Shown here: in pieces, positions 16,021-39,454 of the stretch | Numbering within the stretch: position 1 is the first letter of the stretch | Layout: the number at the start of each line of letters is the position of its first letter | Source of the DNA: Microbacterium sp. | Lineage (GTDB): Bacteria > Actinomycetota > Actinomycetes > Actinomycetales > Microbacteriaceae | Direction of reading: 5' to 3' | Length of the DNA: 64,000 nucleotides | Assembly: GCA_019510305.1 (NCBI GenBank) | Contig: JAEKKN010000021.1 | Location: 155,817-219,816, forward strand | Program-made: the position numbers and the translations under genes | Notes under the pieces: model-generated | Seen by the model: only the letters and a program-made list of their open reading frames with translations | Databases searched by the model: none | What the model was told of the DNA's origin: nothing

Positions 16021-16084
16021 GCGGGCTGAGTCACCGTTCGTTGAGGGACGCTTCGACCCGCGGGCTGAGCCGCCGGTCGTTGAG
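16015..16084 (+). repeat. Two tandem direct repeats with a 39-bp period
   Basis: CGACCCGCGGGCTGAG followed by a CACCGTTCGTTGAG-like stretch occurs at 16015-16045 and again at 16054-16084 (CGCCGGTCGTTGAG). The second copy runs directly into a family A repeat. The pair suggests the intergenic repeat block grew by tandem duplication. Confidence 0.8.
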
Positions 16085-16168
16085 CGAGCACAGCGAGACG
16101 AAACGCCTCATGCTCCGTAGAACATGAGGCGTTTCTTCTCGTCGCTGTGCTCCTCGCTCAACGACCGG
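16073..16168. terminator. Repeat-built bidirectional hairpin between TSUP gene and aspS
   Basis: A forward family A copy (16073-16111, CGGTCGTTGAGCGAGC then AGCGAGACGAAACGCC) pairs with a reverse copy (16122-16168) ending CGCTCAACGACCGG. The arms are about 40 bases with two small insertions in the second arm and an apical stem CCTCATG/CATGAGG. A GCGTTTCTTCT stretch follows the apical stem on the plus strand. Placed between convergent genes, it probably terminates both. Confidence 0.75.
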
Positions 16169-32215: not shown

Positions 32216-35200
32216 ATGCCGACTCCCCGCCACGCCCTCGATATCGAGGCCTTCGACCGACCGGCCCGCTCGCAGGCGCTGTTGGATGCCGTGCACTCGC
32301 GCGTGGTCATCGCCGATGGCGCGATGGGCACCATGCTGCAGCAGCACGAGCTCTCGATCGAGGGCGATTTCCAGGGGCTGGAGGGCTGCAACGAGATCCT
32401 CAACGTCACCCGCCCCGACGTGATCGGCGGCATCCACGACGCCTACTTCGCGACCGGCATCGACGCCGTCGAGACGAACACCTTCGGCGCGAACTGGTCG
32501 AACCTGTCGGACTACGGCATCGACGACCGCATCCACGAACTGGCCGAGGTCGGCGCCCGAATAGCCCGCGAGCGCGCGGAAGCCGCGGAGGCCGCGGACG
32601 GCCGCGTGCGCTGGGTGCTCGGCTCGATGGGCCCCGGTACGAAGCTGCCGAGCCTCGGTCACACGACCTACGACCACCTCAAGCAGACCTTCGCCCTGCA
32701 GGCCGAGGGCCTCATCGACGGGGGAGCGGATGCCTTCCTCATCGAGACGAGTCAGGATCTGCTGCAGACGAAGGCGGCGGTGAACGGATGCCGGCAGGCG
32801 ATCGTCGCGCGCGGCATCCGCCTGCCGATCTTCGTCGAGGTGACCGTCGAGACCACCGGCACCATGCTGATGGGCTCCGAGATCGGCGCCGCGCTCACGG
32901 CTCTGGAGCCGCTGGGCGTCGACGCGATCGGTCTCAACTGCGCCACCGGCCCTGCCGAGATGAGCGAGCACCTGCGGCACCTGTCGAAGCACTCGACCGT
33001 GCCGATCGCCTGCATGCCGAACGCCGGGCTGCCCGTGCTGGGGGCGAACGGCGCCCACTATCCGCTGACTCCGACGGAACTGGCCACGGCGCACGAGCAG
33101 TTCGTGCGCGAGTTCGGCCTGGGCCTGGTGGGCGGATGCTGCGGCACCACGCCCGAGCACCTGGCGGCCGTCGTCGAGCGGTTGGAGCCGTACCGCACCC
33201 GCGATCTGCCCGCTCGGACGGCCGAGATCGAGTCGGGAGTGGCCTCTCTCTACCAGCACGTCGCCTTCGATCAGGACGCCTCGTATCTCGCGATCGGCGA
33301 GCGCACCAACGCGAACGGCTCGAAGGCGTTCCGTGAGGCGATGCTCGATGAGCGCTGGGACGACTGCGTCGAGATCGCGCGCAACCAGATCCGCGTCGGG
33401 GCGCATCTGCTCGACGTGTGCGTCGACTACGTCGGGCGAGACGGGGTCGCCGACATCCGCGAGGTGGTCTCGCGGTTCGCCTCGCAGTCCACCCTGCCGC
33501 TCGTGATCGACTCGACCGAGCCGCCGGTCATCCAGGCCGGTCTCGAGCTCATCGGCGGCCGACCCGTCGTGAACTCCGTCAACTACGAAGACGGCGACGG
33601 CCCCGACTCCCGTTTCGGCAGGATCATGCCGCTCGTCAAGGAGCACGGCACGGCGGTCGTCGCGCTCACGATCGACGAGGACGGTCAGGCGCGCACCACG
33701 GAGGGCAAGGTCGCGATCGCCTCGCGGCTGATCGACTCGCTCGTCGGAGAGTGGGGCATGCGCGTCGAGGACATCATCGTCGACGCCTTGACCTTCCCGA
33801 TCGCCACCGGCCAGGAGGAGACCCGCCGCGACGGCATCGAGACCATCGAAGCGATCCGGCAGATCACGCGGAAGTACCCCGGCATCCACACCACCCTCGG
33901 AGTCTCGAACGTGTCGTTCGGGCTCAACCCGGCCGCCCGCATGGCGCTGAACTCGGTGTTCCTGCACGAGGCGTCGGAGGCCGGTCTCTCCAGCGGCATC
34001 ATCGACGCCGCGAAGATCGTGCCCCTGGCATCCCTTCCCGAGGAGCAGCGCAAGGTCGCCCTGGATCTCGTCTGGGACCGCCGCGAGTACGACGCCGACG
34101 GCAACGTCACCTACGATCCGCTGTCGACCATGCTCGACCTGTTCGCCGGTGTCGACACCGCGGCCCTGCGCGACCAGCGCGCGGCGGAACTCGCGGCTCT
34201 CCCCGTCGGAGAGCGCCTCGAGCGCCGGATCATCGACGGCGAGGGCAAGGGACTCGAGGCCGACCTCGATCTCGCGCGTGCCGAGGGCAAGACCGCGCTC
34301 GGCATCATCAACGACCATCTGCTCGAGGGCATGAAGGTGGTCGGCGAACGCTTCGGCGCCGGCGAGATGCAGCTGCCGTTCGTGCTGCAGTCTGCCGAGG
34401 TCATGAAGAACGCCGTCGCGCTGCTCGAGCCGCACATGGAGAAGTCGGACGCGTCGGGCAAGGGCACGATGGTCATCGCCACGGTGCGCGGAGACGTGCA
34501 CGACATCGGCAAGAACCTCGTCGACATCATCCTCACGAACAACGGCTACAAGGTGATCAACCTCGGCATCAAGCAGCCGATCGCCGACATCATCGCGGCG
34601 GCCGAAGAGCACGACGCCGACGTGATCGGCATGTCGGGTCTGCTCGTGAAGTCGACGGTCGTGATGAAGGAGAACCTGCTCGAACTGCAGGCCAGAGGGC
34701 TTGCGAAGAAGTGGCCGGTGATCCTCGGCGGCGCGGCGCTCACCCGCGCCTACGTGGAGGACGACCTGGCAGGCATGTTCGACGGCGAGGTGCGATACGC
34801 GAAGGACGCCTTCGAGGGTCTCGCGCTGATGGAGCCGCTCGTACGGGTCGCCCGTGGGGAGGACCCGGCCGAAGTCGGTCTGCCGGCGCTGAAGAAGCGC
34901 ATCCACGCTCGCGGCGCGCAGCTCACCCTGACGGAGCCGGAGAACCTGCCGGCCCGCTCCGACGTGGCATCCGACAACGAGGTTCCGGCCCCGCCGTTCT
35001 GGGGAACCCGCATCGTGCGCGGCATCGCACTCGCCGACTACGCGGCGTATCTCGACGAGCGAGCGACCTTCATGGGGCAGTGGGGACTCAAACCGGGCCG
35101 CGGCGAGGACGGCGCCTCGTACGAGCAGCTCGTCGAATCCGAGGGGCGCCCCCGGCTGCGCTACTGGCTCGATCGGATCCTCGGCGAGGGGATGCTGGAT

Positions 35201-35860
35201 GCATCCGTCGCCTACGGGTACTTCCCCGTGGTCTCTGAGGGCGACGACGTCGTGGTCCTGCACCACGGCGACGACCCGACCGGCATCCTGGGCGTTCCGG
35301 GACTGCTGGCTCCGGACGGAGGATCCGGCCCTTCGACAGGCCCAGGGCCCCAGTTGGGTATGGACCGCCTGCGCTTCACGTTCCCGCGGCAGCGCCGCGA
35401 CCGGCACCTCGACCTGGCCGACTTCGTCCGTTCGCGGGAATCGGGTCAGGTCGACGTGCTGCCCGTGCAGCTCGTCACCGCCGGAGCCGCGATCGACAAA
35501 GTCACCGCGAAGCTCTTCGCCGAGAACCGGTACCGCGACTACTACGAGCTCAACGGACTCGTCATGCAGCTCACCGAAGCGCTCGCCGAGTTCTGGCACG
35601 CCCGCATCCGCTCAGAGCTCGGGTTCTCGGCCGAAGACCCGAGCGACACGGCCGGCCTCTTCAAGCTCGAGTACCGGGGTGCGCGCTTCTCGCTGGGCTA
35701 CCCCGCGTGCCCCGACATGGAGGACCGCCGCAAGGTGGTCGAGCTGCTGCGACCGGAACGCATGGGGGTCGAGCTCAGCGACGAGCTGCAGCTGCACCCC
35801 GAGCAGTCGACGGACGCCTTCGTGTTCCACCACCCGGAGGCGAAGTACTTCTCGGTGTGA
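32216..35860 (+). CDS. metH: Cobalamin-dependent methionine synthase
   Basis: A 1214-residue, full-length four-module MetH that transfers methyl groups from methyltetrahydrofolate via cob(I)alamin to homocysteine. The homocysteine module has the zinc cysteines C242 (GLNCATGP), C308 and C309 (GGCCGTT). The folate module follows from about 340 (AIGERTNANGSKAF). The cobalamin module has the lower-ligand motif DVHDIGKN with H762. The activation module occupies the C-terminal 300 residues (GYPACPDMEDRRKV). At about 1038-1047 a family B repeat encodes GPSTGPGPQ in the activation module. It has its own promoter and is convergent with an ECF transporter that may import B12. Confidence 0.97.
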   Translation: MPTPRHALDIEAFDRPARSQALLDAVHSRVVIADGAMGTMLQQHELSIEGDFQGLEGCNEILNVTRPDVIGGIHDAYFATGIDAVETNTFGANWSNLSDYGIDDRIHELAEVGARIARERAEAAEAADGRVRWVLGSMGPGTKLPSLGHTTYDHLKQTFALQAEGLIDGGADAFLIETSQDLLQTKAAVNGCRQAIVARGIRLPIFVEVTVETTGTMLMGSEIGAALTALEPLGVDAIGLNCATGPAEMSEHLRHLSKHSTVPIACMPNAGLPVLGANGAHYPLTPTELATAHEQFVREFGLGLVGGCCGTTPEHLAAVVERLEPYRTRDLPARTAEIESGVASLYQHVAFDQDASYLAIGERTNANGSKAFREAMLDERWDDCVEIARNQIRVGAHLLDVCVDYVGRDGVADIREVVSRFASQSTLPLVIDSTEPPVIQAGLELIGGRPVVNSVNYEDGDGPDSRFGRIMPLVKEHGTAVVALTIDEDGQARTTEGKVAIASRLIDSLVGEWGMRVEDIIVDALTFPIATGQEETRRDGIETIEAIRQITRKYPGIHTTLGVSNVSFGLNPAARMALNSVFLHEASEAGLSSGIIDAAKIVPLASLPEEQRKVALDLVWDRREYDADGNVTYDPLSTMLDLFAGVDTAALRDQRAAELAALPVGERLERRIIDGEGKGLEADLDLARAEGKTALGIINDHLLEGMKVVGERFGAGEMQLPFVLQSAEVMKNAVALLEPHMEKSDASGKGTMVIATVRGDVHDIGKNLVDIILTNNGYKVINLGIKQPIADIIAAAEEHDADVIGMSGLLVKSTVVMKENLLELQARGLAKKWPVILGGAALTRAYVEDDLAGMFDGEVRYAKDAFEGLALMEPLVRVARGEDPAEVGLPALKKRIHARGAQLTLTEPENLPARSDVASDNEVPAPPFWGTRIVRGIALADYAAYLDERATFMGQWGLKPGRGEDGASYEQLVESEGRPRLRYWLDRILGEGMLDASVAYGYFPVVSEGDDVVVLHHGDDPTGILGVPGLLAPDGGSGPSTGPGPQLGMDRLRFTFPRQRRDRHLDLADFVRSRESGQVDVLPVQLVTAGAAIDKVTAKLFAENRYRDYYELNGLVMQLTEALAEFWHARIRSELGFSAEDPSDTAGLFKLEYRGARFSLGYPACPDMEDRRKVVELLRPERMGVELSDELQLHPEQSTDAFVFHHPEAKYFSV
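35329..35358 (+). repeat. Dispersed repeat family B copy inside metH
   Basis: CCCTTCGACAGGCCCAGGGC followed by CCCAGTTGGG. It encodes PSTGPGPQ in the activation domain, in the same reading frame as the ccdA and resB copies; three of its four changed bases make S and T into P. Confidence 0.8.
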
Positions 35861-35960: not shown

Positions 35961-38918
35961 TCAGGAGTCGGAGACGTCGCGCGTGGATGGGGGCGCGGGC
36001 GCCCGCAGCGCAACCGGCTTCGCGCGGCGGAGTGCCGCGAGCACGGGACGCCCGATCAGAACTACTCCGGCGATCGTCGTGATCGCGCGCAGAGTGTCCC
36101 ATCCGGCGGTCGACGTGACGAGGGAGTAGAGCAGGAAGCTGCCGAGGTTCTCGACGAGAGGAGCGCCGGGCGCGTAGGAGATCGTGGTGCCCGAGCCGAT
36201 CGCGAACGGCCAGAACCAGAGGTTGAGCAGCAGGCCGAAGAGATAGGACGCGATGGCGCCGTAGGCGCAGAGCATGATGATCTCGCCCCAGCCCCGCACC
36301 CGACGGGGAAGAAGCCCGGCGCCGCCGCCCACCCACGCGCACGCGAACATCTGGAACGGCGTCCACGGGCCGAAGCCTCCGAACACCGTGGACGACAGCA
36401 GGATCGTGGCGACGCCGAGCAGCATGCCGAACCGGGCGCCGAAGGCGCGGCCGGCGAGCACGAGCAGGATGAACACCGCCTCGACGCCTCCCACGCCGGT
36501 GCTCGCGATGCGCAGAGCAGTGCCGATCGCCGCGAGCACACCGAGGTAGGCGAGGGTGTGTGCGGAGCGCACAGTCTGATCGAGCGCCGCGATCGCGACG
36601 ATCACGGCCACGGGGGCGAGTGCGAGGGCGACCCAGGGCACCGCAGCGGTCGCCTGCGAGGGTACGGCCACGGCGACGAAAGGCCATGTGAAGGCGGCGA
36701 GGGCCACGAGATTCGCCGCGAGGAGTGCGAGCCGCCCTCCGTGCCACCCGTTCGTCGAGCGAGGAGAAGCTCCTTCCGACCCGTTCGTCGAGCGAGCGGA
36801 GCGAGATGCTGCTTCTTCCCCTCCGTTCGTTGAGCGAGCGAAGCGAGACGAAACGCGTGAGTCTTCCGGAACATCAGCCGACTGCGCCCGCACGCTCGTC
36901 GAATCGGTTGCTCGCTCCACAGGCGACGGGAGATCGATGTGCGGGAGATGATCGACCGACCGGTGCGGTTCGTCGGTCACCGCAGCCGGCACCACGCCAT
37001 CGCTCATCGGCAGGATCCGTGCACCGATACTGTGCGCGAAGTCGACATCGTGAGTCGCCACCAGCACCGCGGTGCCGGCATCGGCCGCCCCGCTCAGAGC
37101 CTCGCGCACCTGATCGCGGGCACGCACGTCGAGCCCTCGGGTGGGCTCGTCGATCAGCAGAGCCTCGGGGGCACGCGCGAGCTGCAGAGCGATCGCCAGG
37201 CAGCGTCGTTCGCCGAGTGAGAGGTCGAGCGGATGCCGCGTCATCCGCCCGCGGAGCCCTCCGGTGTCGAGATCGAGGAATGCCGCGAACCTCTCGGCGG
37301 TCGCCGTCTGCGAGGAGATGCCGGCCCTGCGCGCCCTGCGGTCGGCCCGAGCGCACTCGGCTGCCACCGTGTCGCGGGTGAACAGATCGTCGGAGGCGTC
37401 GGGGACGAGCACCGGGCGCCCCGTGACCACGAGATCGCGCGGTGGCAGCGCGAGCGCCATCAGGAGAGAGGACTTCCCCGCGCCGTTGGGCCCGATCACC
37501 GCCGCGATCTCACCGCGGGCGAGCGAGAGAGTCGCGTCGGCCACAGCGATCGTGTCGTCGAGCGCGATGCGGACATGCGACGCCGCAAGGGCTGAAGGAC
37601 TCGCGACCTCCGTCCGTTGAGCGAGGGAGCGCAGCGACGGAGCCGAAACGCGGTGAGAGTCGAGCGGAGGAAGCGCCGGTCGACTGAGGCGTTTCGTCTC
37701 GCTTTGCTCGCTCAACGCACCGGCCTCGATCGTCCACCACTCGTCGGCGACGTCCTCGAAGGCGGCTGCGCGATGCTCCGCGACCAGCACGCACACGCCG
37801 CCTTCGTGAGCCAGCGACTCCAGCGCCGCGACCACGCGCGCACGTGCGTCGGCATCCAGGTCTGCGAGCGGTTCGTCGACCAGCAGCAGGATCGGACGCT
37901 CGACCACTGCGGCGGCGATCGCGACCATGGTCGCCTCCCCGGCCGACAGCGCGTGCACCGCTCGATCCCGCAGATGGGCGATACCCAGACGCTCGGCGAC
38001 CTCATCGACGCGAGCGGTCACGATCGTCGATGCCACTCCGCGCAGCTGCAGAGACAGTCCGATCTCGTCGCGGACCAGTTCGCTGCAGAACCCTTCGCGC
38101 GGGTTCTGCAGCACGACGCCGACGAGCCGGGAGGAATCGCGCGGCGGCGTCCGCCGGCGCGCGTGCCCCGCCACCTCGACGACGCCCGTCGACCAGCCGC
38201 CGTCGACGTGGTCGACGAGCCCGGCCAGACCGCGCAGCATCGTCGACTTGCCCGATCCGGTCGGTCCGGTGGCGACGGCGAGCACTCCCGTACCGAGGGA
38301 GAGCTGCGGCACGGACAGCACCGGCGCATCGCCGAACCCGAAGGCGGCATCGCGCACGGTCACGGGGGTCAGACATTCGCCGTCGACCGGTGCGCCGCCG
38401 AAGCCGCGCAGCTCCAACCCGTTCGCGACCGCCGCCGCGCGCTCGAGCGTGCGCTCGAGCACCGGGACCAGCATCCGCGGTCCCGCCTTCTCTCCCCGGA
38501 GGCGCTGCGCGGTGTGCACGGTGCGCACGGCCTGGCCGAGGCCCGGGAGCGTCGACCACGCCACCGCCAGCGCCCGGGCGATCCCGCGCAGCGGGCCGCG
38601 TCGGGCGAGCAGGCCGAACGCCCGCGAGATGTCGAACAGGGCGTTCAGCAGGCCGAACAGCAGGATGACCGCGGCGATGGGCAGGGCCGAGAGCACGGCC
38701 CCCCAGAGCCCGTCGATGGTGACGGGGCCGAGCAGCGTCACCCAGGAGAAGGGGGCGGGCAGCCGCACGGCGGGCAGCGGCAGCAGCACGACACCGCTGC
38801 CGTCTGCACCGTGGAACAGCACGCGGTAGACGACGCGGGCGACGACGAAGATCGCCGCCAGCCCCGCCGCCGCGCGCAGCGGGCCGGGTCTCAGTCGGAG
38901 CCGGCCCGCTCTGGTCAC
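35961..38918 (-). CDS. Single-chain ECF vitamin transporter: T, two ATPase and S components fused
   Basis: A 985-residue protein that combines all parts of an energy-coupling-factor importer. Residues about 1-180 are EcfT (helices, then coupling motifs AQRLRGEK and GLELRGFGG). ATPase 1 spans 185-398 (Walker A GPTGSGKST near 217, signature LSAGEATMVAIA, Walker B LLLVDEPLADLD). ATPase 2 spans 440-665 (Walker A GPNGAGKSS near 474, signature LSLGERRCLAIAL, Walker B ALLIDEPTRGLD). Residues from about 728 are a six-helix S component (FGGFGPWTPFQMFACAWVGGG). The linkers at about 400-437 and 684-726 are encoded by dispersed family A repeats. GTG start overlaps the lipoprotein stop. Cobalamin is my favoured substrate, from context only. 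Confidence 0.9.
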   Translation of the reverse strand: MTRAGRLRLRPGPLRAAAGLAAIFVVARVVYRVLFHGADGSGVVLLPLPAVRLPAPFSWVTLLGPVTIDGLWGAVLSALPIAAVILLFGLLNALFDISRAFGLLARRGPLRGIARALAVAWSTLPGLGQAVRTVHTAQRLRGEKAGPRMLVPVLERTLERAAAVANGLELRGFGGAPVDGECLTPVTVRDAAFGFGDAPVLSVPQLSLGTGVLAVATGPTGSGKSTMLRGLAGLVDHVDGGWSTGVVEVAGHARRRTPPRDSSRLVGVVLQNPREGFCSELVRDEIGLSLQLRGVASTIVTARVDEVAERLGIAHLRDRAVHALSAGEATMVAIAAAVVERPILLLVDEPLADLDADARARVVAALESLAHEGGVCVLVAEHRAAAFEDVADEWWTIEAGALSEQSETKRLSRPALPPLDSHRVSAPSLRSLAQRTEVASPSALAASHVRIALDDTIAVADATLSLARGEIAAVIGPNGAGKSSLLMALALPPRDLVVTGRPVLVPDASDDLFTRDTVAAECARADRRARRAGISSQTATAERFAAFLDLDTGGLRGRMTRHPLDLSLGERRCLAIALQLARAPEALLIDEPTRGLDVRARDQVREALSGAADAGTAVLVATHDVDFAHSIGARILPMSDGVVPAAVTDEPHRSVDHLPHIDLPSPVERATDSTSVRAQSADVPEDSRVSSRFARSTNGGEEAASRSARSTNGSEGASPRSTNGWHGGRLALLAANLVALAAFTWPFVAVAVPSQATAAVPWVALALAPVAVIVAIAALDQTVRSAHTLAYLGVLAAIGTALRIASTGVGGVEAVFILLVLAGRAFGARFGMLLGVATILLSSTVFGGFGPWTPFQMFACAWVGGGAGLLPRRVRGWGEIIMLCAYGAIASYLFGLLLNLWFWPFAIGSGTTISYAPGAPLVENLGSFLLYSLVTSTAGWDTLRAITTIAGVVLIGRPVLAALRRAKPVALRAPAPPSTRDVSDS
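36747..36765 (+). repeat. Dispersed repeat family A, copy 1 in ECF linker 2
   Basis: CCCGTTCGTCGAGCGAGGA, a shortened copy. On the coding strand it gives PRSTNGW just before the S component. Confidence 0.8.
36780..36806 (+). repeat. Dispersed repeat family A, copy 2 in ECF linker 2
   Basis: CCCGTTCGTCGAGCGAGCGG followed by AGCGAGA. On the coding strand it gives SRSARSTNGS. Confidence 0.82.
36822..36860 (+). repeat. Dispersed repeat family A, copy 3 in ECF linker 2 (full length)
   Basis: TCCGTTCGTTGAGCGAGCGA followed by AGCGAGACGAAACGCGTGA. On the coding strand it gives SRVSSRFARSTNGG. With copies 1 and 2 it makes RSTNG three times over. Confidence 0.87.
37611..37656 (+). repeat. Dispersed repeat family A copy in ECF linker 1, forward
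   Basis: CGTCCGTTGAGCGAGGGAGC followed by GCAGCGACGGAGCCGAAACG. It gives HRVSAPSLRSLAQRT between the two ATPase domains. Confidence 0.8.
37686..37719 (-). repeat. Dispersed repeat family A copy in ECF linker 1, reverse
   Basis: GAGGCGTTTCGTCTCGCTTT followed by GCTCGCTCAACGCA. It is inverted relative to the copy at 37611 and gives ALSEQSETKRL. The two copies together could form a hairpin in the transcript. Confidence 0.85.
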
Positions 38919-39454
38919 GAGGTGGGAGCTGCGGGAGCGCCGTTGACGGTGAACAGCAGCTCGACGCTGTCGCCGGGGTTCAGCTCGAGGGCGGAGAGTC
39001 CGGTCTGCGCGTAGTCCCATTCGCCATCGGCGGGCTTGACCCACAGGCCCCAGTATGCGGCGGCCGGGGGCATGTCGGCGCAGGTCTCGTGATAGGAGGC
39101 GCCGTCGTCGCCGGTGAGCTCCGTGTCCTCCGAGGGCACGCCGTTCACGCGGCAGATGACGTCGTCGGGGTAGGTCGTGGTGCCCACCGTGGTGAATCCG
39201 GCCTCGGTCACCGCATCCGTGCCGAGGATCGTCTCGTCGGTCTCGACGCACACCGAGGCGGACGGGTCGTCGGAGATCTCCAGATCGCCGGTGTCGACGA
39301 CGACGGTCACGCCGGCGCAGGCGCCGTCATCGGCGGCGGCGGCCGACGGCGTCGGAGTCGATGTCGGGGCGGTGGGAGAGCACGCGGTGAGGGACAGCGC
39401 GAGGACGGCTGCCGCGGACAGGGTGAGAGCGAGGTTTCGGGTCTTCGGGGTCAC
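38915..39454 (-). CDS. Transcobalamin-like (DUF4430-like) lipoprotein next to the ECF transporter
   Basis: A 179-residue exported lipoprotein. The signal peptide ends LALSLTAC with Cys25, followed by a Pro/Thr/Ser/Ala linker. The C-terminal part (VNGVPSEDTELTG, YWGLWVKPADGEWDYAQTGLSALELNPGDSVELLF) resembles the DUF4430/transcobalamin C-terminal-like fold, including the tryptophan-containing strand and the final GD turn. TACTGT six bases before GTG at 39454 implies a leaderless start, preferred over an upstream ATG at 39484. Its TGA overlaps the GTG of the ECF gene, so the two are coupled. It may capture or hand over the vitamin outside the cell. The family assignment is from memory of the pattern. 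Confidence 0.75.
   Translation of the reverse strand: MTPKTRNLALTLSAAAVLALSLTACSPTAPTSTPTPSAAAADDGACAGVTVVVDTGDLEISDDPSASVCVETDETILGTDAVTEAGFTTVGTTTYPDDVICRVNGVPSEDTELTGDDGASYHETCADMPPAAAYWGLWVKPADGEWDYAQTGLSALELNPGDSVELLFTVNGAPAAPTS

Follow-up and report, generated by a model that had tools for sequence, protein, structure and literature searches.

Importers of the energy-coupling factor (ECF) type usually consist of three or four separate proteins, whose parts are designated here as T (EcfT), A and A' (the ATPases), and S. ECF-CbrT of Lactobacillus delbrueckii is a vitamin B12 ECF transporter (PMC5997447), and ECF modules with a fused ATPase pair, A1-A2, exist (PMC6828968). In group II ECF transporters, the S component associates with and leaves the module (PMC7755397 and PMC12075633), and PMC7761784 describes ECF transporters as working without a classic binding protein. 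The window analysed here, a stretch of 64,000 nucleotides from Microbacterium sp., encodes on its minus strand a protein of 985 residues (35961..38918) in which the four parts follow one another in the order T-A-A'-S, as read from the open frame and Pfam. We consider it very probable that this protein is a dedicated (group I) single-chain ECF importer for cobalamin or related corrinoids that works with a transcobalamin-like capture lipoprotein, the substrate being read from the genomic context. The fuller picture, namely a complete one-chain ECF in which EcfT is cut down to a two-helix minimum and the tethered S component never leaves its module, and which is fed by its own transcobalamin-type lipoprotein, is in our judgement evenly balanced between right and wrong. 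No description of a T-A-A-S chain was found among the titles and abstract openings of the papers listed, and an earlier mention is possible.

The single chain and its domains

The minus-strand frame from 38918 to 35961 yields 985 residues with zero internal stops, and plus-strand frame 1 of the same interval contains stops. The GTG start codon shares bases with the TGA stop of the preceding gene, in the sequence GTGA. Pfam detected CbiQ (PF02361) at residues 41–175, with 26.7 bits against a cut-off of 25, together with two ABC_tran stretches, and the S component was recognized via relatives. These results bear out an earlier sequence-only reading of this DNA, which had proposed a complete T-A-A-S importer in one chain with intact catalytic Walker motifs. 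Related loci (L numbers) and genomes (G numbers) in actinobacteria were scored for their architecture. All 124 scored loci, including the window, comprised 44 with T-A-A-S in one frame (fused), 42 with T-A-A and a separate S (T-A-A + S), 33 with T, A-A, and S apart (T + A-A + S, unfused), and five that were cut off; for a few of these loci, one genome seems to be represented twice, in two collections.

The T part (residues 1–178; 38385..38918, minus strand) was delimited by the CbiQ match, alignment, and hydropathy, and contains two predicted membrane helices and the coupling helices ending in LELRGFGG. The EcfT coupling motifs QRLRG and LELRGFG are present in the alignment, and the membrane helices flanking the core are absent. 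In the unfused relatives, the aligned stand-alone T proteins carry about 50 residues with membrane helices ahead of the core and, after the RG[FY] motif, roughly 95–150 further residues with more helices. The aligned T-A-A and T-A-A-S proteins start just ahead of the third helix, and their first ATPase begins, as judged by eye, about 15–25 residues past the RG[FY] motif. Hydropathy analysis gave two helices for the T part of the chain; past the RG[FY] motif alone, it found three to five hydrophobic stretches in the stand-alone T proteins of L059, L104, L169, and L185 and two in that of L105. The method is crude, and L173 and L180, which were cut wrongly by the script, were not counted. The alignment and hydropathy thus indicate a pruned EcfT, with its outer membrane helices gone, rather than a full one. 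The loss of the outer helices would bring the C-terminus of T to the cytoplasmic side, where the ATPase has to be, and the pruned form bears on the minimum of EcfT that is required.

The two ATP-binding cassette (ABC) ATPase domains were located by Pfam and by their motifs. The first (approximately residues 184–401; 37716..38369, minus strand) contains GPTGSGKST, LSAGE, and LLLVDEP, and the second (approximately residues 443–655; 36954..37592, minus strand) contains GPNGAGKSS, LSLGE, and ALLIDEP. Walker A and Walker B are intact in each of the two domains, and the signature and H-loop are also present. The aspartate and glutamate of Walker B are found in both domains of all 37 aligned fused chains, and the Walker A lysine is found in the first domain of 37/37 and in the second domain of 33/33 aligning rows, the other four rows being gapped by the alignment. 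In the Q-loop of the second ATPase, glutamine is replaced with aspartate (VLVPDAS, encoded at 37360–37420). The residue at this position is aspartate in 36 of the 37 fused chains, glutamate in 36 of the 42 T-A-A proteins, and glutamine in 32 of the 33 unfused ones; judging from these alignments, the Q-loop asymmetry between the two ATPase domains is a feature that goes with the fusions. The missing Q-loop glutamine and the missing outer helices of T could be taken as signs of a degenerate or non-functional fusion, or the long frame as a sequencing or assembly artefact. We give either of these very little credence, because the fused chains retain the Walker A and Walker B residues and because the frame is seen again in many genomes that were sequenced separately (30 of the 60 scored loci with named organisms), with linkers that diverge far more than the domains; an artefact is thereby excluded as the source of the single frame.

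The S component occupies residues 723–985 (35964..36752, minus strand), with eight predicted helices and an AIGTA sequence (AxxxA) in the first helix of its six-helix core. Known S components have six helices, two fewer than the S model described below. The S part of the window alone gave no Pfam or NCBIfam match at E 0.1; among 41 aligned S relatives, 17 hit PF12822 (ECF_trnsprt) with E values of 1 or less, the best being 1.4e-9. Profile searches of the S and lipoprotein alignments against solved structures gave only chance-level hits, and structure models were therefore used instead. The S model, built from the 41-row alignment, has eight long helices and a mean predicted local distance difference test score (pLDDT) of 81.7. 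A Foldseek search of the Protein Data Bank (PDB) with this model placed ECF S components at ranks 1–15 (FolT, RibU, ThiT, a biotin S component, and 4huq chain S), with probabilities of 0.87–1.00 and E values from 0.077. The first-ranked entry, 4huq chain S, bears only the title 'a transporter', and we take it to be an ECF S component. The first alanine of AxxxA is present in 39 and the second in 36 of the 41 aligned S sequences, and this motif in helix 1 docks S on EcfT (PMC11109136).

The genome encodes three further CbiQ matches, which, read by eye, belong to two A-A + T sets and one bioY-bioM-bioN-like set. Separate ecfT genes are thus present elsewhere in the genome, each accompanied by its own ATPases, and the S component of the chain is part of the chain.

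The lipoprotein, MetH, and the candidate substrate

Neither the genes that flank the chain nor a substrate had a place in the sequence-only reading, nor did the Q-loop change. Upstream of the chain, on the same strand, lies a gene for a small lipoprotein of 179 residues (38915..39454, minus strand) with the lipobox LTAC, whose stop is the one overlapping the GTG start of the chain. A homologue lies upstream on the same strand in all 44 fused loci and in 41 of the 42 T-A-A + S loci, the exception (L172) being a short contig; all 85 homologues are on the same strand as T and end at most 90 bases from its start. The lipoprotein of the window matched no Pfam or NCBIfam family. Its model, built from 31 rows, has a mean pLDDT of 84.6 and contains more strands after a helix at residues 53–59; the beta-grasp fold of the transcobalamin-like SLBB clade is marked by a beta-hairpin insert following its helix. 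In a Foldseek search of the PDB, transcobalamins held ranks 1–13 and the bacterial structure 3u7z ranks 14–15, with E values of 0.005–0.06; the transcobalamin hits had E values of 0.005–0.02 and probabilities of 0.97–1.00. The predicted fold resembles the C-terminal domain of transcobalamin, a beta-grasp domain that helps to hold B12 and has many bacterial relatives (PMC1796856).

The lipoprotein also appears to be related to the SCO2322 family (NF040672, cut-off 85 bits), to whose profile 22 of the 31 lipoproteins show a match with an E value of at most 1 (7.2e-7 for the best). The corresponding gene of the 33 unfused loci is SCO2322-like in 28, lipoprotein-like in four, and without a match at the cut-off in one. 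The C-terminal part (residues 110–154) of four of the six lipoproteins tested aligns with the beginning of the SCO2322 profile (4–44 of 144), and the N-terminal part (residues 24–83) matches residues 81–140 of the Kribbella proteins (pairwise E 2e-5). The lipoprotein (38915–39454) and the SCO2322-family protein (5029–5799 in L059) seem, from these alignments, to be related by circular permutation of a single domain. An artificially half-swapped SCO2322 set gave an alignment with the lipoprotein no longer than before, which leaves the two half-matches as the sole basis of the permutation. In four members of the family with genomes of 1.3–1.4 Mb (L180, L181, L184, and L185), T, A-A, and S are apart, and the lipoprotein is of the window type.

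On the other side of the chain, metH (32216..35860, plus strand) encodes the B12-dependent methionine synthase and is convergent with it. A convergent metH was found at the 3' side in 41 of the 43 T-A-A-S loci other than the window, the remaining two (L076 and L078) having less than 1.5 kb of flank, and in 37 of the 42 T-A-A + S loci. Among the other five of the latter, L166 and L179 have short flanks, and L164, L165, and L187 have none within 5 kb, their genomes carrying MetH elsewhere; the T-A-A + S genomes in which MetH and S are both present and not adjacent are G083, G154, and G209. The convergent metH was found in all five cut-off loci and in none of the 33 T + A-A + S loci (three with short flanks). 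All 39 named loci that do not belong to the Kribbella group (L005–L042 and L060) have MetH. In a draw of 299 Microbacteriaceae genomes, the MetH activation domain was detected in 48, all of which also have the S component, and in none of the 245 genomes lacking S; six S-positive genomes (G101, G112, G141, G175, G227, and G286) have no MetH. In the genus of the window, the chain is present in seven of 23 genomes and MetH in the same seven, and the 23 genomes gave no match to CbiC, a marker of B12 synthesis, and no methylmalonyl-CoA mutase. For the 48 of 299 family genomes with MetH, the S family, fused or not, would be a candidate route of B12 uptake.

The unfused loci provide a tie to corrinoids of another kind. 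In 23 of the 33 loci, genes for CobU and CobS come after S and share its strand; 21 of these loci are Kribbella-like and two are in G023 and G026. This tie to corrinoid salvage comes from few lineages, but it is independent of MetH. A ligand of methionine metabolism other than a corrinoid (a folate such as methyltetrahydrofolate, methionine, or a precursor) could account for the MetH neighbour too. The Foldseek hits of the S model do include FolT structures near the top, and the S component of Kribbella weakly matches the folate-family S profile TIGR04518 (18.4 bits against a cut-off of 60). The FolT hits are mixed with those of RibU, ThiT, and the biotin S component and thus look generic, and the resemblance of the lipoprotein model to transcobalamin and the cobU and cobS genes beside the unfused relatives speak against such a ligand; we regard a single-chain importer of this specificity as unlikely.

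Several observations weigh against corrinoid import with a transcobalamin-like lipoprotein. The best Foldseek E values were weak (0.005 for the lipoprotein and 0.077 for S, with none at or below 0.001), though the probabilities reached 1.00, and neither of the known B12 S components, CbrT (6fnp) and BtuM, was among the best 50 of the 171 structure hits of the S model. DUF4430 (PF14478) gave no match in the window's own genome at E 10 and none in the 31 lipoproteins at E 1. When six lipoproteins were tested singly against NF040672, four matched with at most 22.9 bits, below the cut-off of that family, and the window's own lipoprotein gave no match. No cobalamin riboswitch was found in the window at the gathering score, nor in the genome among the 150 of 258 first-look candidates that were scored. 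Among the 12 unfused loci outside the Kribbella-like ones, cobU and cobS are in reach in two only. The co-occurrence with MetH was scored, among B12 importers, for the S family, and because the chain and MetH are mostly neighbours and related genomes are not independent, it partly reflects shared history; in a wider set of 38 genomes, G030 and G037, which belong to other families, are MetH-positive, with no S among the matches listed. Finally, the seven chain-positive genomes of the genus, that of the window among them, all encode MetE. B12 is therefore not necessarily essential for methionine in these organisms, and its use looks optional. The same finding leaves the idea that MetH makes the organism B12-dependent unsupported.

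With these points taken into account, we favour a corrinoid importer that may operate as follows. The membrane-anchored outer lipoprotein would capture a corrinoid via its transcobalamin-like domain and hand it to the S domain. The S domain would take the corrinoid from the outside and, by analogy with the family, topple against the pruned T via its AxxxA helix. ATP binding and hydrolysis at the joined ATPase domains would then release the corrinoid inside and reset S, and the imported corrinoid would feed the MetH encoded next door. With S on a flexible linker (31–138 residues in the fused chains), S could move off T but could not be exchanged. If this is true, a transcobalamin-like capture protein has been added to an ECF system, and the lipoprotein would represent a transcobalamin counterpart in bacteria.

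Recurrence, order of fusion, and the linkers

The search returned 67 loci with named organisms. Seven of these (L065–L071), with a match confined to the ATPase region, went unscored. The search patterns were drawn from the window protein, which favours close relatives. Besides the 30 loci with T-A-A-S in one frame, the 60 scored ones (L005–L064) included eight with T-A-A + S, 21 with T, A-A, and S apart (20 from Kribbella and one from a record named Streptomyces), and one that was cut off. The S component was detected in 54 of the 299 genomes of the family draw, seven with T-A-A-S, 34 with T-A-A + S, eight with T + A-A + S, four cut off, and one with a partial match (G141). In a draw from the phylum, 146 of 396 genomes matched the S profile at E 0.001. 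Twenty loci were returned from this draw, four of which were already known; the 16 new ones consisted of one fused locus (L208, from G027) and 15 with A-A and S in separate frames. The chain is not an oddity of Microbacterium only, a possibility that was rejected because the fused chain is also present in Agromyces, in a record named Arthrobacter, and in one genome from another family within the same taxonomic order (G027). The record named Arthrobacter sp. 135MFCol5.1 (L039) has its fused chain inside the Microbacterium clade, which points to either a transfer or a misnamed record.

The architectures are ordered on a tree of the S component, which was a quick, unrooted tree of 117 sequences with several long branches. 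Seven rows (L073–L079), mostly duplicates, were left out, and five truncated rows were unlabelled. All 33 T + A-A + S rows fall on one side of a branch (99*), and one clade (97*) consists of 37 T-A-A-S rows and two T-A-A + S rows. The architecture labels change four times on the tree, compared to 52.9 times when shuffled, and repeated independent fusion is not favoured by this count. If the T + A-A + S side is taken as the outside, which is an assumption, T would have joined A-A first and S later. Inside the fused clade, the two T-A-A + S rows (L025 and L040) read S in a different frame from T-A-A, which could reflect re-splitting or frame errors. The series T / A-A / S, T-A-A + S, and T-A-A-S supports the view, already taken in the first reading, that the chain was made by gene fusion. 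Relatives that carry the parts as separate genes, named beforehand as a finding that would refute the reading, do exist among the more distant ones; they reveal in what order the parts were joined and do not point to an error.

The linkers of the window chain contain a dispersed repeat. The A1-A2 linker (approximately residues 402–442, bounds by eye; 37593..37715, minus strand) is about 40 residues long by eye and 17 by the domain bounds of the script, and includes an inverted pair of the repeat, with a copy, CGTTTCGTCTCGCTTTGCTCGCTC, at 37690..37713 on the plus strand. The A2-S linker (approximately residues 656–722, about 67 residues; 36753..36953, minus strand) is of low complexity and partly repeat-derived, with the copy CGTTTCGTCTCGCTTCGCTCGCTC at 36832..36855 on the minus strand. 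Both linkers thus hold a copy of CGTTTCGTCTCGCTNNGCTCGCTC, in opposite orientations. The genome contains 54 copies of CGTTTCGTCTCGCTNNGCTCGCTC at up to two mismatches and none of a reversed control pattern, and a further copy in the window lies at 16082–16105. At up to three mismatches, the script found the repeat within the linkers of four of the 44 fused loci (the window, L007, L010, and L079). Insertion of the repeat is likely to be behind the growth of the linkers in the window protein, as far as the sequences tell, but this is not general. The earlier proposal of fusion followed by linker growth agrees with the fusion series, the variable linkers, and the repeats in this protein. The possibility that most repeat copies lie inside genes was rejected after a crude test of open reading frames and third-codon-position GC content, in which three of 23 copies had coding-like frames (20 stretches taken). 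Similar translated words, ATETKR and SSRFARSTN, were noted between the ATPase domains of an A-A protein from another ECF set (L001).

The long, variable, low-complexity linkers also raise the possibility that the chain is made whole and then cut in them, working as ordinary separate subunits; the parts are indeed encoded separately in relatives. We consider this improbable. Inspection of the A2-S linkers listed revealed no common cleavage motif, and the frame is open across 44 loci despite identities of the aligned S parts of fused chains to the window S as low as 65%.

Comparison with known systems

The sequence-only reading had held that a fixed chain commits the module to one substrate and one stoichiometry. 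The first half stands in the sense that the S partner is fixed; the stoichiometry is unchanged, because ECF complexes are 1:1:1:1 anyway. A tethered S component with linkers of variable length offers a natural test of whether S must leave the module in each cycle, and if the proposed substrate is right, the tethered chain carries the same vitamin as ECF-CbrT.

ECF-CbrT and the window protein have in common ECF-type import, the T, A, A', and S domains, and a B12 or cobinamide substrate, which for the window protein is proposed. CbrT is a separate subunit whose module is common to other S components, as described in PMC5997447, whereas the S component of the window is fixed in the chain. The A1-A2 modules of PMC6828968 resemble the unfused relatives in that one polypeptide carries A-A; the window chain also joins T and S. 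The beta-grasp C-terminal domain of transcobalamin and intrinsic factor (SLBB superfamily, according to PMC1796856) resembles the predicted fold of the lipoprotein. The lipoprotein is, in contrast, bacterial, only 179 residues long, and without the alpha/alpha toroid domain, and profile searches did not detect a sequence similarity between the two.

A further related system is the gene cluster of Kribbella steppae (L059), in which an SCO2322-family protein, T, A-A, S, cobU, and cobS follow in this order. Its S component (44% identical), A-A, and T are homologous to those of the window, and the product of its first gene (NF040672) is related to the lipoprotein. The Kribbella cluster differs in that T, A-A, and S are separate, T is longer, and MetH is not alongside, and its SCO2322 domain seemingly has its halves in the opposite order to those of the window lipoprotein.

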